Below, in pieces: positions 43,556 to 49,139 of a stretch of 64,000 nucleotides of DNA. The position numbers and the translations under genes are program-made. The notes under the pieces were generated by a model, which saw only the letters and a program-made list of their open reading frames with translations, was not told the DNA's origin and searched no databases. Within the stretch, counting starts at the first letter, position 1. Each line of letters starts with the position of its first letter. The stretch is from Chromobacterium sp. IIBBL 290-4 (GTDB lineage Bacteria > Pseudomonadota > Gammaproteobacteria > Burkholderiales > Chromobacteriaceae), in contig NZ_CP100128.1 of the NCBI RefSeq assembly GCF_024207115.1, forward strand, positions 620,001 to 684,000, written 5' to 3'.

Positions 43556-44632
43556 TCAGTCTGCCTTCAACACGCCGCGGCGGATCTGGTCTTCTTCGAT
43601 GGACTCGAACAAGGCCTTGAAGTTGCCTTCGCCGAAGCCCTGGTTGCCCTTGCGCTGGATGATCTCGAAGAAGATCGGCCCGATGACGGTTTCGGTGAAG
43701 ATCTGCAACAGGATGCCTTCCACCGGCGCGCCGTCGATCAGGATGCTGTTCTTCTTCAGGCGGGCGACGTCCTCGCCGTGATTCGGCACGCGGACATCCA
43801 CTTTTTCATAATACGTGTCCGGGGTATCCAGGAAGCGGGTGCCCTGCGCCTTCAGCGTTTCCACCGTGGCGTAGATGTCTTCGGTGGTCAGCGCGATGTG
43901 CTGGATGCCCTCGCCCTTGTATTCGCGCAGGAATTCCTCGATCTGGCTCTTGTCGTCGGACGATTCGTTGATCGGGATGCGGATCTTGCCGCAAGGGCTG
44001 GTCATGGCCTTGGACACCAGGCCGGTCAGCTTGCCTTCGATGTCGAAGTAGCGGATTTCGCGGAAGTTGGCGATGCCGGTGTAGAAATCGGCCCAGGTAG
44101 CCATATGGCCGCGCGCCACATTGTGGGTCAGGTGGTCGATTTCGGTCAGGCCGACGCCGTAGGGATGCTGATCCACGCCGTCCAGCGGCACGAAGTCGAT
44201 CTCGTAGATGTCCTTGTCTTTGCCGTAGCGATCGACGAAGTACAGCGCCGAGCCGCCGATGCCTTCCACGGCCGGAATGTTCAGCTCCATCGCGCCCACC
44301 GGGCGCTGATAGGGCTTGGCGCCGTGCGCAAGCGCGTATTCATACGCCTTGGCGGCATCCTTGACGCGCCAGGCCATCGCACAAGCGGACGGGCCGTGCG
44401 CCTGGGCGAACTCGCTGGCCGGCTGGCTGCGCTCGGCGTTCAGGATGAAGTTGATGTCGCCCTGGCGGAACAGGCAGACGTCCTTGCTGCGATGGCGGGC
44501 GATCTCGGTAAAGCCCAGCGACACGAACAGCTTGCGCAGCTTTTCCACACCCTCCGCGTCCGGGGCGGTGTACTCCACGAACTCGAATCCGTCGGTGGCT
44601 AGCGGATTTTGCAGCATGGCTTCCATTTTCAT
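43556..44632 (-). CDS. hppD: 4-Hydroxyphenylpyruvate dioxygenase
   Basis: 358 residues. It converts 4-hydroxyphenylpyruvate to homogentisate with Fe(II) and O2. Two vicinal-oxygen-chelate domains are present. Metal ligands lie in LTEIDHLTHNV (His), EGIQHIALTTEDI (His) and IGPIFFEIIQRKGNQGFGEGNF (Glu; cited as FFEIIQRKGNQGFGEGNF). GAGGAG precedes the ATG at 44632. It is the first gene of the minus-strand operon hppD-hmgA-fahA-maiA, divergent from an Lrp-type regulator. Confidence 0.95.
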   Translation of the reverse strand: MKMEAMLQNPLATDGFEFVEYTAPDAEGVEKLRKLFVSLGFTEIARHRSKDVCLFRQGDINFILNAERSQPASEFAQAHGPSACAMAWRVKDAAKAYEYALAHGAKPYQRPVGAMELNIPAVEGIGGSALYFVDRYGKDKDIYEIDFVPLDGVDQHPYGVGLTEIDHLTHNVARGHMATWADFYTGIANFREIRYFDIEGKLTGLVSKAMTSPCGKIRIPINESSDDKSQIEEFLREYKGEGIQHIALTTEDIYATVETLKAQGTRFLDTPDTYYEKVDVRVPNHGEDVARLKKNSILIDGAPVEGILLQIFTETVIGPIFFEIIQRKGNQGFGEGNFKALFESIEEDQIRRGVLKAD

Positions 44633-45051
44633 CAGTTTCTCCTCTGTTTGTGATGGCCCGCGGGACAAAACCGCGCGGGTAGAACAAGTTTGAGCACAAC
44701 TTGTAAACGTCCTCAGGCGAACCGCGTTATGTAAGCAGGCCGCCCTTCTCCCTCTGTAGCGGGGAGTTGGCAATACCAAGGGTGGACAGGAGCGGAGTCA
44801 AGAGAAGGCGGCATGCGGCAAACTCATGCGGCAGGCGCCGGAAGCCGGTGGCAGCGCGGCGAACTCTCCTCTGAACAACCGTTTTATCTGTTTCACACTC
44901 GTTCGACATGCGTCGGCAGTCTTTGCTGCCGTTTGCTGAATTTAGGCTTTTTATTCTATGGAAAGCGCGTGGCAATTATCTTGCTAAATAGCTTAGCCTA
45001 GTCGATATTGAAGAATAAAATGTCTCAACATACCGATATACAGGAGAAAAT
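44633..45051. promoter_or_regulatory. Divergent control region between hppD and the Lrp-type regulator
   Basis: About 420 bases. Next to hppD lies the inverted repeat ACAAGTT-N7-AACTTGT (44684-44704) and a GC hairpin CCCGCG/CGCGGG at about 44657-44679. Near the regulator the region becomes AT-rich and ends with an AGGAG site. An 82-codon minus-strand open frame inside (44727-44975) has no support. Confidence 0.55.
44684..44704. promoter_or_regulatory. Inverted repeat, candidate operator of the hpp operon
   Basis: ACAAGTT and AACTTGT are perfect 7-base arms with a 7-base spacer, 52 bases upstream of the hppD start codon. The size and spacing fit a dimeric regulator, such as the divergent Lrp-type protein. 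Confidence 0.55.
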
Positions 45052-45537
45052 ATGCCAAGTCTCACATTAGACAAGACAGACTTGCGTATTCTGGCCGAAT
45101 TACAGCATGACGGCCGACTAACCAACGTCGAGCTGGCCGAACGCGTCGCCCTATCGCCTTCGCCTTGTCTGCGCCGGCTGAAACAGTTGGAAGAGTCGGG
45201 CGTGATTCGCCAATACGTCGCCCTGCTCGACCCTGCCCATATCGGTCTGGGGCTGCAGGCCTGGGTGCGTGTCACGCTGGAAAAGCGCGGCAACCTGCAT
45301 CTGCAAAGCTTCATCGATGCGGTGCAAAACTGGCCGGAAGTCATCAATTGCTTCGCGATGACCGGAGAAATGGACTACCTGCTGCAGGTGTACTTCGAAG
45401 ACATGGAGCACTTCTCGCGCTTCGTGATGGACGAGTTGCTGCAGCACCCTGGCGTGGAAGACGTGAAGTCGAGTTTCGTGCTGAAAGAAATCAAACGCAC
45501 CACGGCCCTGCCGCTGGGCCAGATGCGCAGCATTTGA
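45052..45537 (+). CDS. Lrp/AsnC-family transcriptional regulator
   Basis: 161 residues. An N-terminal HTH (LDKTDLRILAELQHDGRLTN, then VALSPSPCLRRLKQLEESGVI) and a C-terminal RAM domain (about 70-150, MTGEMDYLLQVYFEDMEHF) are typical. Its divergent position beside hppD suggests control of tyrosine/hydroxyphenylpyruvate degradation, perhaps with an aromatic amino acid as ligand. AGGAG precedes the ATG. A terminator follows. Confidence 0.92.
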   Translation: MPSLTLDKTDLRILAELQHDGRLTNVELAERVALSPSPCLRRLKQLEESGVIRQYVALLDPAHIGLGLQAWVRVTLEKRGNLHLQSFIDAVQNWPEVINCFAMTGEMDYLLQVYFEDMEHFSRFVMDELLQHPGVEDVKSSFVLKEIKRTTALPLGQMRSI

Positions 45538-45548
45538 TGATTGTCAGA

Positions 45549-45578
45549 CAAAAAATGGCCCTGCGGGGCCATTTTTCA
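45549..45578 (+). terminator. Terminator of the Lrp-type gene
   Basis: AAAATGGCCC-TGCG-GGGCCATTTTT is a strong hairpin with a T-run, 12 bases after the stop codon. Confidence 0.9.
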
Positions 45579-45828
45579 TTTCAGAACGCCTGCCCAAGGC
45601 GACAAACAGCCCGGACAAGCAAACCGCTCGGTGCAAACTCTCTTTATCATCAATTTAACAACACTTTTCAACTGGACTTTATACATCGCCGTCCCGCCCG
45701 GATTATCAATCAACCATCTTGCGCGCAAAACTCCATCGGACTATCCATTTGAATTAAAAATAACAAAAGCATCACGCCCTGCCCGGTAAGACAAGAAGTG
45801 TCCGTTCTTCAATCCAGAAAGGCGCGCC
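45579..45828 (+). promoter_or_regulatory. AT-rich leader of the VioB-like gene
   Basis: About 250 bases, AT-rich from 45640 to 45780. Several -10-like runs occur (TTTATAC at about 45680, TTAAAAAT at about 45755), but no single clear promoter. No quorum-sensing-type box with correct spacing was found. Confidence 0.35.
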
Positions 45829-48549
45829 ATGAGCTATCTCAGTCTTCCCCGCTTAGTCTTCGCCGGCCAGTTCCAGGCCGACCCCTCCACGGTCAACAAT
45901 GACCCCGAGCATTTCGACGACCGCCATTTCCAATCCAGCTACCAACTGCTGGGAAATGATTCCAACTTTAGCAATAACGGCTGGTGGAACCCTGCCGGGA
46001 CCGGCTCCTGGCGGTTGCGGCACTGCCAAGTCACCAGTGTTTGCTATCAGGATGGCAGCCAGTCCGTCGACCCGAACTACGATCCGGTCATCGGCCTGCC
46101 CTTGACCGATGCCGACAATCGCGTCGCAGGCAAGATCGTGGATCTGGACCCGGAACAACAGATGGTTTCTCAACTGTGGGGCTTTTCGGTCACTCTGGGG
46201 CCCGCCGGTTCGCCGATTCGCTTTCGCGGCGACTTCGCCGTCGCGCCGTTTGCCGACATCTGGTGCATCGTCAACCATTCCGGCTTCAGCAACAGCACCG
46301 CCGCCGCGTATTACCAATCCGTGCTGGAAAACCTGAATTGGTTCTCTACCGATGCCGCTCAGTCGGGCTCTCGTTTCTTGCGGGAACTGTTCCAGCATGC
46401 CGCCGGCGCGCCGGCGCGGCTAAGCATCAAGTTCAACATCGATGGCTATGACGACGAACCCGACAGCGCCGGCTTCACCTTCGGCCGCATCGTCGGCTGT
46501 ATAGGCTTGAGCCTAGACGGCGAGCCTCGCCACTTCGTCCCCGGCCGCCGGCTGTTTGCCGTGAGCAACCCGTCTCCAGCGGCCAGCCTCAATGACGCCA
46601 TCGCGGTCATTGAGCAGAATCGGCTGACGCTAGATCTGGGCAACAGCCTGCCCACCGCCAGTTCTGGCGGCCCCCGAAGCGACAATGGCCCGCTGGCGCT
46701 GGTATCGCAGCCCGGCGTCAACGGCGAGCCTTATCTGCTCTTGGGAGAAATCGATTACCGCGCGCCCGGCTGGCATGAGCGCACCGCCGGGATTGTTTCC
46801 TTTCCGCTGACTCAGCAAACGGCTGACCGCATTGCGGCGCAACCTTTGGCCTTGCAACAACTCTCAACGCAGCTCGACATTCTGCAAGAGAATGCCAATG
46901 GCCAGTGGGTGCGCGCCGATCAGTTCGTCTACCGGATGAGCCCGAACGACGCGGCGGAAGTCAAATTCTACGCCAGCCAGTTCGGCCAGCCGCTGCCCCA
47001 GGCCCAGATCAGTCTGACGCTGGACCCCAGCGCCTTGCAGGGACAGCAGCAACAAGGCCCTATTCCCGGCCCCACGCCCGGCATGCCGACGCAGGCAATG
47101 GAGTTTGCCAAGAGCCTCACCACCAATGCCAGCGGCCAGGCCACGCTGCGGCTGCATGCCGGCGATCCAGGCAATCCGCGCGGCTATATCGACGGACAGG
47201 TGTACTGCATAGGCTACCAACTAGGCCCTCAAGCGCCGCAGATAGGCAGCCAGAGCAATTACGCCTTTCAGATCAGCGCGCTGATCTTCGACGCTTACGT
47301 CCAACCCGCCACGCCGGATTGGATGCATGATGTGCGGCCCATCCTGCAGCAATACGCAGACCTGTATCCGATCATGCGCAAGATCGTCGATCTATCCAAC
47401 TACGCCAGCCTGCTCCGCAATATTTACGCGCTGAAAAACGTATTCAGCGCGCCCGAGCATGACCCCAATTACATGCCCGTCACCCGAGACTTGTCGCCGG
47501 CCAAACGCAAGATGCTGCTCGCCTGGCTGGACCATCCGGTCTACATGCGTATGGACTCGGTCGAGGAGTTGAAAGAAGCGCTGCAACTGGCGATAGAGCT
47601 GGAGCATGCGACGCTGCCGCCTTATTTGACCGCGCTGTTCAGCATCAAGCCGGGCTGCAACACCGAGGTGGCCGCGCTGATCCGCAGCGTGGCGATGGAA
47701 GAAATGCTGCACATGGCCTTGATGTCCAATCTGCTGATCGCCATCGGCGGCAAACCGCGCTTCAACCACGCCCGCTTCATTCCCGACTATCCAGGCTCGC
47801 TGCCGGGCGGATTGCGCGCCGATCTGCAGGTGCGGCTGCGCAAGTGCTCGATCGAACAGCTGCGCGCCTTCATGTCAATCGAGCAGCCCGCTGCCATGGC
47901 GGAGCCCGTGAGCGGCCAAATCACGTCAGCCGACCCGCTCATTCCTTCCGACAACACCATCGCCTGGTTCTATGACAAGATCACTCAATCGCTGACAACC
48001 TTGAGTCAGCAGGGCAAGATCCGCTTTGGCCATCCTGAGCGGCAGGTCACCGACTGGCCCGGCGCCGGCCAGCTCTATCTGATCGACAGCCTGGAGACCG
48101 CGCTGCAGGCCATACGCGAAATCCAAAGCCAGGGCGAAGGCAATAGCCCGGATGACCCTTGCGATGTCGATCACGAGCTGGCGCACTATTACAAGTTCGC
48201 GCAGATCGTGAATGGCAAGCGGCTGGTCAAGACGACGCAGGGCTATGAATACAGCGGTCCGGAGGTGCCCTTCGATCCGCAAGGAGTGTGGCCGATGCAG
48301 GATGATCCCATGCTCAGCAGCTTTCCGCCGGGCTCGCGCGCCAGATTGCTGGCAACACAGTTCAATCACAGCTACCACGCCATGCTCAACGCGCTGCATG
48401 AGGCGTTCAATGGCGAGCCGACGACGCTTGGGCAAGCGGTCAGCCTGATGCGCAGCCTGCAACTATCGGTGCAGCAACTGGTGCAGACGCCATCCGGCCG
48501 CGATGACGGCCTCAATGCGGGTCCGACTTTTAGTCGACCAGCCCGCTAA
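45829..48549 (+). CDS. Orphan VioB/RebD-family protein with ferritin-like domain
   Basis: 906 residues. VioB and RebD dimerise indole-3-pyruvate imine in violacein and rebeccamycin synthesis. This protein shares their layout: an N-terminal block (LPRLVFAGQFQADPSTVNND) and large beta-rich region to about residue 500; the block YMPVTRDLSPAKRKMLLAWL (about 545-565); then a ferritin-like domain (PF12902 type, about 575-800). Candidate metal ligands there are E590 and H593 (ELEH), E624/E625 and H628 (MEEMLH) and H782-E783-x-x-H786 (DHELAH). No vioA, C, D or E homologue is nearby. A ribosome-binding site AAAGG precedes the ATG. Family membership is strong; the substrate is unknown. Confidence 0.82.
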   Translation: MSYLSLPRLVFAGQFQADPSTVNNDPEHFDDRHFQSSYQLLGNDSNFSNNGWWNPAGTGSWRLRHCQVTSVCYQDGSQSVDPNYDPVIGLPLTDADNRVAGKIVDLDPEQQMVSQLWGFSVTLGPAGSPIRFRGDFAVAPFADIWCIVNHSGFSNSTAAAYYQSVLENLNWFSTDAAQSGSRFLRELFQHAAGAPARLSIKFNIDGYDDEPDSAGFTFGRIVGCIGLSLDGEPRHFVPGRRLFAVSNPSPAASLNDAIAVIEQNRLTLDLGNSLPTASSGGPRSDNGPLALVSQPGVNGEPYLLLGEIDYRAPGWHERTAGIVSFPLTQQTADRIAAQPLALQQLSTQLDILQENANGQWVRADQFVYRMSPNDAAEVKFYASQFGQPLPQAQISLTLDPSALQGQQQQGPIPGPTPGMPTQAMEFAKSLTTNASGQATLRLHAGDPGNPRGYIDGQVYCIGYQLGPQAPQIGSQSNYAFQISALIFDAYVQPATPDWMHDVRPILQQYADLYPIMRKIVDLSNYASLLRNIYALKNVFSAPEHDPNYMPVTRDLSPAKRKMLLAWLDHPVYMRMDSVEELKEALQLAIELEHATLPPYLTALFSIKPGCNTEVAALIRSVAMEEMLHMALMSNLLIAIGGKPRFNHARFIPDYPGSLPGGLRADLQVRLRKCSIEQLRAFMSIEQPAAMAEPVSGQITSADPLIPSDNTIAWFYDKITQSLTTLSQQGKIRFGHPERQVTDWPGAGQLYLIDSLETALQAIREIQSQGEGNSPDDPCDVDHELAHYYKFAQIVNGKRLVKTTQGYEYSGPEVPFDPQGVWPMQDDPMLSSFPPGSRARLLATQFNHSYHAMLNALHEAFNGEPTTLGQAVSLMRSLQLSVQQLVQTPSGRDDGLNAGPTFSRPAR

Positions 48550-48556
48550 GTCCCGG

Positions 48557-48584
48557 TAGGGCTATCCGCCTGGCGGATAGCCCT
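48557..48584 (+). terminator. Hairpin after the VioB-like gene
   Basis: AGGGCTATCCG and CGGATAGCCCT form an 11-bp stem with a 4-base loop, 8 bases after the stop. There is no T-run, so efficiency is uncertain. It also lies just beyond the convergent UPF0114 gene. Confidence 0.65.
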
Positions 48585-48593
48585 GCCGCTTGC

Positions 48594-49139
48594 TCAATGC
48601 GAAGCGTGCTGAGCGGTGGCGCCGGCCAGCAGCTTATCGGTGTAAGCGATGGCCGCCGCCGACAACAAAAAGGCCAGATGCAGGAACAGTTGCCACTTGA
48701 TGGTGTGCTCGTCGATGCGGCTGGCGTTGATGAAAGTTTGCAGCAAGTGGATGGAGGAGATACTGATGATGGCCATCGACAGCTTCACCTTCAACACTGA
48801 GGCGTTGACATGGTCCAGCCACTCCGGCTGGTCCGGATGGCTGTCGATGCGCAGCCGCGACACAAAGGTTTCGTAGCCGCCCACCGTCACCATCACCAGC
48901 AGGTTGGCGATCATCACCACGTCTATCAGCCCCAGCACCGCCAGCATGATGTCGGTTTCGGTCAGGTGGTTCAGCCCTTCCAGAAGCTCCCACAGCTGCG
49001 CGAGAAACTTCCAGGCGTATACGCCCTGCACCACGATCAGGCCCAGATAGATGGGCAGTTGCAGCCAGCGGCTGCTGAAAATCACCTGCCCCAGCAGCGA
49101 TTTTCGGACTTCAGGTTGTTGGGTGGTTTGGTCTTGCAT
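48594..49139 (-). CDS. UPF0114 (YqhA/TIGR00645) membrane protein
   Basis: 181 residues with four membrane segments (about 27-48, 68-90, 117-140, 152-170). The family is conserved but uncharacterised. Its signature is visible in [20 protein letters not shown] and [25 protein letters not shown], cited as [17 protein letters not shown]. It lies 51 bases downstream of metF on the same strand, possibly co-transcribed with it. No link to methionine metabolism is known. Confidence 0.9.

Follow-up and report, generated by a model that had tools for sequence, protein, structure and literature searches.

A fused VioB-like and ferritin-like protein of Chromobacterium sp. IIBBL 290-4 belongs to a distinct family whose relatives recur beside the ebo cluster

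P0001 is a fused VioB-like and ferritin-like protein of 906 residues, encoded on the forward strand at positions 45829-48549 of the 64-kb window (the whole stretch of Chromobacterium sp. IIBBL 290-4 DNA analysed here). On balance, it is probably a cytosolic non-haem iron oxidase on a separate branch of the VioB/RebD superfamily, acting as an accessory enzyme of the ebo cluster. This reading is based on full-length VioB homology, five Glu/His residues conserved in a ferritin-like domain, a placement apart from VioB, the recurrent linkage of the family to ebo, the strict co-occurrence of its full-length members with ebo within the genus and the insertion of the gene at its present locus, all of them computed.

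The translated reading frame has no internal stop and contains the sequence motifs on which the first-pass annotation had based its VioB-type layout. Residues 1-355 (45829-46893) make up a beta-rich domain homologous, by structure model and profile comparison, to the N-terminal region of VioB (the model of residues 1-354 has a pLDDT of 85.7), followed by an Ig-like beta-sandwich (residues 356-490; 46894-47298) and a ferritin-like helical domain (residues 574-902; 47548-48534), all on the forward strand. The ferritin-like domain PF12902 is the sole Pfam domain of the protein (residues 585-794, E 8.4e-61, 206 bits for a cut-off of 22.3), and the C-terminal domain has the ferritin-like fold class of VioB. 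A protein search, in which 7995 candidates sharing most words were scored, gave 1213 relatives at E <= 0.001, and among the best 120 of these the closest other protein is 61% identical to P0001. Comparison by hhalign of 60 full-length relatives (from the best 120) with 25 of the 92 matching VioB/chromopyrrolic-acid-synthase (CPA-synthase) sequences aligned the two families over 860 columns with probability 100 and E 2.4e-50, and the first 354 residues alone over 345 columns with probability 99.3 and E 1.7e-20. Judged by these alignments, homology over the whole length is far beyond chance. The intact VioB-type frame and the VioB/RebD-type architecture proposed earlier are thus borne out, the latter by the N-terminal homology, PF12902 and the ligand set described below. 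With VioB (TIGR04492) and its relatives RebD, StaD, EspD and Tjp2, P0001 has in common colinear homology over the full length, an N-terminal MSxLxxPRxxFxG start, a YMPxTRxLS linker and the ferritin-like domain.

P0001 nevertheless differs from VioB in several respects. Pairwise identity is 22%, and the VioB equivalog TIGR04492 (NCBIfam) matches P0001 with 16 bits (E 0.0019), far under its curated cut-off of 1250 bits. In a 90-row tree (quick search, SH-aLRT support only, midpoint root) nine VioB/CPA rows lie on one side and the 81 others opposite, joined by branches of 2.75 and 2.17 changes per column. The full-length homology, the score below the cut-off and the separate clade together indicate that P0001 shares the VioB superfamily and layout but belongs to a distinct family. 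The first-pass annotation had staked the kinship with VioB on fold and phylogeny; fold class and sequence are indeed common to both, the tree places P0001 far from VioB, and no alternative activity is known for it. An identification of P0001 as VioB itself was rejected on the TIGR04492 score, on the separate clade and on the presence of a true vioB beside vioA elsewhere in the genome. This violacein cluster lies on the same chromosome at about 4.82-4.83 Mb (the P0001 gene is at 0.67 Mb) and encodes a VioB of 1002 residues (997 in database entry P0121, alongside entries named VioB at 60-70%). It further encodes a flavin amine oxidase resembling VioA and has three ORFs (429, 373 and 191 residues), which from their sizes and position we take to be VioC, VioD and VioE. 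At E <= 1e-30, TIGR04492 matches the violacein locus and not the P0001 gene. The genome's own VioA, VioC, VioD and VioE (the last three labelled by ORF size and position) gave no tblastn match at E <= 1e-3 in the 64-kb window, so that P0001, unlike VioB, lacks linkage to vioA, vioC, vioD and vioE, and the earlier statement that no pigment genes surround it holds.

The characterised relatives RebD, StaD and VioB catalyse the dimerisation of indolepyruvate imine, and the available text of two papers describes them as dependent on haem (PMC3640393, PMC10847564). P0001 could be a functional equivalent of VioB or RebD that dimerises arylpyruvate imines supplied in trans by VioA or by a different amino-acid oxidase, since the two-part architecture and the ligands are common to both and the gene for the true VioB has that for a VioA-like amine oxidase next to it. 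We regard this as quite unlikely given the low TIGR04492 score, the very long branches, the true VioB already present in the genome and the behaviour of the genus relatives, which track ebo and not violacein (see below). The proposal that P0001 probably acts on a substrate different from that of VioB is counted as supported.

An alignment of 146 rows (60 fused, 58 two-gene, 25 VioB/CPA-synthase and three single-domain proteins) points to a set of putative metal ligands kept throughout: E592 on helix A (47602-47604; E in 143/143 rows with a residue, 3/146 being gapped), E625 and H628 of an ExxH motif on helix B (47701-47712), E770 of a QGEG motif on helix C (48136-48138) and H786 on helix D (48184-48186), all encoded on the forward strand and, from helix B onwards, present in 146/146 rows. 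The VioB group has the same E592/E625/H628/E770/H786. Two further residues, E783 and E624, are less conserved, E624 being kept in 128/146 rows and Q in the others. The metal pocket first proposed (E590, H593, E624, E625 and H628) therefore stands for E625 and H628 and in part for E624, but not for E590 and H593, positions at which the VioB group mostly has other residues; the full five-residue set was absent from the first-pass annotation.

A contig scan with a profile of 60 relatives gave 79 loci (four with a partial match) from the best 80 of 403 relatives, and all counts of loci given here refer to this set. Queried with six ebo genes taken from three loci, 26/79 loci proved to have at least three ebo genes within 10 kb, and all 26 are among the 62 loci of at least 15 kb; 22 loci have five or six ebo genes, and a same-strand ebo gene lies within 600 bp at 19 of the 26. 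As a 20-kb neighbourhood is less than 1% of such genomes, we estimate that chance adjacency would account for about one locus at most. Members of the family are flanked at these loci by relatives of the six genes that make up the ebo (EDB) cluster in Nostoc punctiforme and Pseudomonas fluorescens. On the tree, ebo linkage requires a minimum of 14 changes and the fused versus split state a single one. Among the two-gene pairs, 20 loci are ebo-linked (nine Flavobacteriaceae, Pedobacter, two Photobacterium, three Azospirillum, four Oxalobacteraceae and Anabaena), and in the fused clade 6/22 (three Undibacterium, Symploca and two Streptomyces); of the 16/22 fused-clade loci without adjacent ebo, just four are on contigs under 10 kb. 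The nearest relatives of P0001 are the Undibacterium proteins, at 59-62% identity, which form with it a four-row set of support 99, and their genes (L016, L017, L039) precede a same-strand eboD by 32-125 bp within loci that have eboA-F. At L016 the EboA domain and EboE score over their cut-offs, TatD, UbiA, DHQ synthase and phosphodiesterase are found in Pfam, and the EboA-family and EboC scores are below the NCBIfam cut-offs. In the four annotated records examined out of 168 that match, plasmids of Mycetohabitans and Aureibacter likewise have the pair beside ebo, TatD and DHQ synthase genes adjoin the pair in Gloeothece, and on Azospirillum pAB510e none of the genes annotated within 10 kb of the pair is an ebo gene. 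The pair is annotated in the records as 'hypothetical protein' and 'ferritin-like protein'; this unnamed full-length protein beside ebo clusters, whether fused or a two-gene pair, is of the same family as P0001. The published cluster descriptions, in the text available, give eboA-F, and the word 'ferritin' does not occur in the available parts of PMC6282210, PMC5133447, PMC6092422 and PMC9235831. The survey for conserved partners suggested earlier accordingly yielded a recurrent ebo cluster among the relatives, and for P0001 itself only incidental neighbours. The ebo link of the family was absent from the first-pass annotation, as it needs comparison with other genomes.

Within the genus, EboE is encoded in 12/19 genomes, and in 12/12 of these, kinship uncorrected, a relative that matches in the N-terminal as well as the ferritin-like part, and thus counts as full-length, lies 1.36-1.62 kb from eboE on the same contig and strand. 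The N-terminal part has no match at E <= 1e-10 in 7/7 genus genomes without ebo, four of which have the ferritin-like part alone. VioB is found in 9/19 genomes, and the full-length relative, present in 6/9 genomes with vioB versus 6/10 without, is independent of vioB within the genus. The genome studied here has a complete eboA-F cluster with its own two-gene ferritin-like pair (L009 7969-17343; C1 4.522-4.531 Mb), in which eboD begins directly after the pair and EboE is over its cut-off. A further full-length two-gene pair without ebo neighbours lies at L010 8166-11506 (C1 4.222-4.226 Mb), and its sister rows (Massilia, Pseudoduganella, Solimicrobium) lie within ebo loci, in tandem with a pair resembling that of L009. 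The sister rows are in ebo loci for P0001 (3/3) and for L010 (3/3), both themselves outside ebo; L009 is itself in ebo, and of its six nearest rows three are beside ebo and three are not. This genus-wide pattern, the sister rows of P0001 and L010 and the position of L009 within ebo are the main support for a role with ebo. Nine of 229 genomes in a sample of the class have EboE, and PF12902 occurs among these only in the window's own; its absence from the other 8/9 indicates that the family is accessory to ebo and not a core part. No ebo gene lies within the 64-kb window, so that P0001, unlike its ebo-adjacent full-length relatives, is a detached copy without physical linkage. EboE is found in 8/18 fused-clade genomes, of which two have it at the linked Undibacterium loci and three are Chitinophaga; since eboE is present in 79/79 Chitinophaga genomes (78 over the cut-off), this co-occurrence says little on action in trans.

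The present location of the gene appears to be the result of an insertion. In the window, an Lrp/AsnC regulator (45052-45537, forward strand), followed by a forward-strand hairpin (45550-45577; read by eye), lies to the left of the P0001 gene, and a UPF0114 protein gene (48594-49139, reverse strand) to the right. Orthologues of the latter, 91-97% identical, occur in 11 other genomes of the genus, and in 11/11 congeners with a UPF0114 orthologue of at least 90% it directly adjoins lrp within a block that also has hpd, metF and ahcY. In these congeners 29-101 bp separate the end of the lrp alignment from the start of the UPF0114 alignment, and each gap between the two genes has one GC-rich hairpin (by eye). 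The congeners L119 and L120 align through this hairpin up to position 45579 and again from 48604-48615, which delimits an insert of about 3.0 kb comprising a leader (45580-45828, forward strand), the gene and a perfect 12-bp inverted repeat directly 3' of the stop codon (48559-48583), probably a hairpin. Judged from these alignments, and compared with loss from all 11 congeners, a single-gene insertion is the more parsimonious account. Of 19 genus genomes, one has a match of the fused type, and the other 18 reach at most 331 bits. The neighbours of P0001 are therefore incidental, and the proposed link to the adjacent tyrosine-degradation genes falls; the four-gene neighbourhood in the window likewise gives no support of its own to the ebo reading. 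The position of the gene beside hpd and 291 bp downstream of lrp on the same strand could be taken to suggest a role in the catabolism of tyrosine or aromatic amino acids, but such a role is very improbable, because hpd (4-hydroxyphenylpyruvate dioxygenase; 43556-44695, reverse strand), an ancestral neighbour outside the insertion, and the rest of the neighbourhood are complete without P0001 in all 11 testable congeners, and because the hairpin after lrp separates it from the P0001 gene. The leader described earlier as AT-rich does exist, its AT-richness being moderate (48% GC, compared with 61% in the gene and 62% across the window); an Rfam search with it gave no match. The single-gene insertion, the restriction of the fused match to one genus genome and the lack of partner genes nearby would also fit a recent acquisition kept by chance without a current role. 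We consider this unlikely, since the 906-codon frame is intact with a third-position GC of 77%, every conserved residue is kept, and the gene has its own leader and hairpin.

The genome has eight PF12902 copies, P0001 and seven more that were absent from the first-pass annotation, and among 14 control genomes PF12902 occurs in Caulobacter only. The Caulobacter ferritin-like protein CC_0557 (PDB 3hl1), the title of which states no function, lacks the N-terminal domain of P0001. At L015 4682-8510 (C1 2.115 Mb) the gene for a 695-residue PF12902 protein precedes those for a RiPP-modifying enzyme of the MbnB/TglH/ChrH type and for a DUF2063 protein; MbnB-type enzymes use iron, and two unrelated iron-enzyme types thus apparently share one cluster. 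A second PF12902-like protein of about 460-520 residues lies near the full-length protein at L031 7132-9677, L090 13310-15789, L018 4337-6800 and L026 14155-16451, adjoining a conserved ORF of about 328 residues, which at L031 has no Pfam match. At L012 5691-9843 (C1 3.15 Mb) a single-domain PF12902 gene lies directly upstream of LodA-like and LodB-like genes in an apparent operon, and several congeners have a ferritin-only match with a similar score. On the Mycetohabitans endofungorum megaplasmid (L132 3498-6559), LodA/GoxA-like and halogenase-like genes lie about 4 kb upstream of the pair and the ebo cluster.

These neighbourhoods raise the question of whether P0001 works together with a quinoprotein amino-acid oxidase of the LodA/GoxA type, either on its imine or peroxide or in cofactor maturation. 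Single-domain PF12902 genes of the genome adjoin (L012) or lie about 5 kb from (L011) LodA/LodB-like genes, fungal lodA loci also have PF12902 genes according to the available text of PMC4417212, and Mycetohabitans has a LodA-like gene, the pair and ebo together. The LodA-linked proteins of the genome, however, lack the N-domain, no lodA-like gene lies in the 64-kb window, and among the 79 loci only L036 has one; we therefore think such a partnership distinctly improbable for P0001.

As an accessory enzyme of ebo, P0001 would bind iron through the five Glu/His residues, perhaps two irons if E783 and E624 join them, and would activate O2 at this ferritin-like site. The substrate may be an intermediate, aromatic or imine, on the way to the ebo metabolite, and the beta-rich N-domain would help to present it, and the reaction an oxidation or oxidative coupling; the copy in the window would act in trans with the genome's own ebo cluster at 4.52 Mb. 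The haem descriptions of RebD, StaD and VioB argue against a purely non-haem site. In the available text of the papers cited, an EboC-type UbiA-297 farnesylates 8-hydroxyquinoline-2-carboxylate (PMC9235831), a sugar phosphate cyclase activity is postulated for EboD, the cluster is connected with the export of scytonemin intermediates, and Pseudomonas with an insertion in eboA, eboD or eboE becomes edible to nematodes (PMC6282210), which together make an aromatic ebo product plausible. The closest relatives of P0001, on the ebo side, suggest an unrecognised oxidation step in the ebo pathway.

The ebo cluster occurs in several bacterial phyla and some algal plastids (PMC5133447, PMC9235831) and has been linked to scytonemin export and nematode repulsion (PMC6282210), and the available parts of these three papers name no common ebo metabolite. 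We found no published report of a tie between a VioB-type family and ebo in the open-access literature searched, and to that extent the tie is new. Tentatively, and with considerable doubt, we suggest that a second large and hitherto unrecognised VioB/RebD branch may oxidise the ebo metabolite, through the ferritin-like iron site common to VioB, to oxidised or coupled aromatic products akin to violacein and scytonemin precursors, with P0001 as a mobile fused copy that would extend the product in trans. If the role proposed here for P0001 with ebo holds, a ferritin-like metal site should be common to VioB and RebD, although both are treated as haem enzymes, and an ebo-linked enzyme family with predictable redox chemistry would offer a direct handle on the ebo compound.
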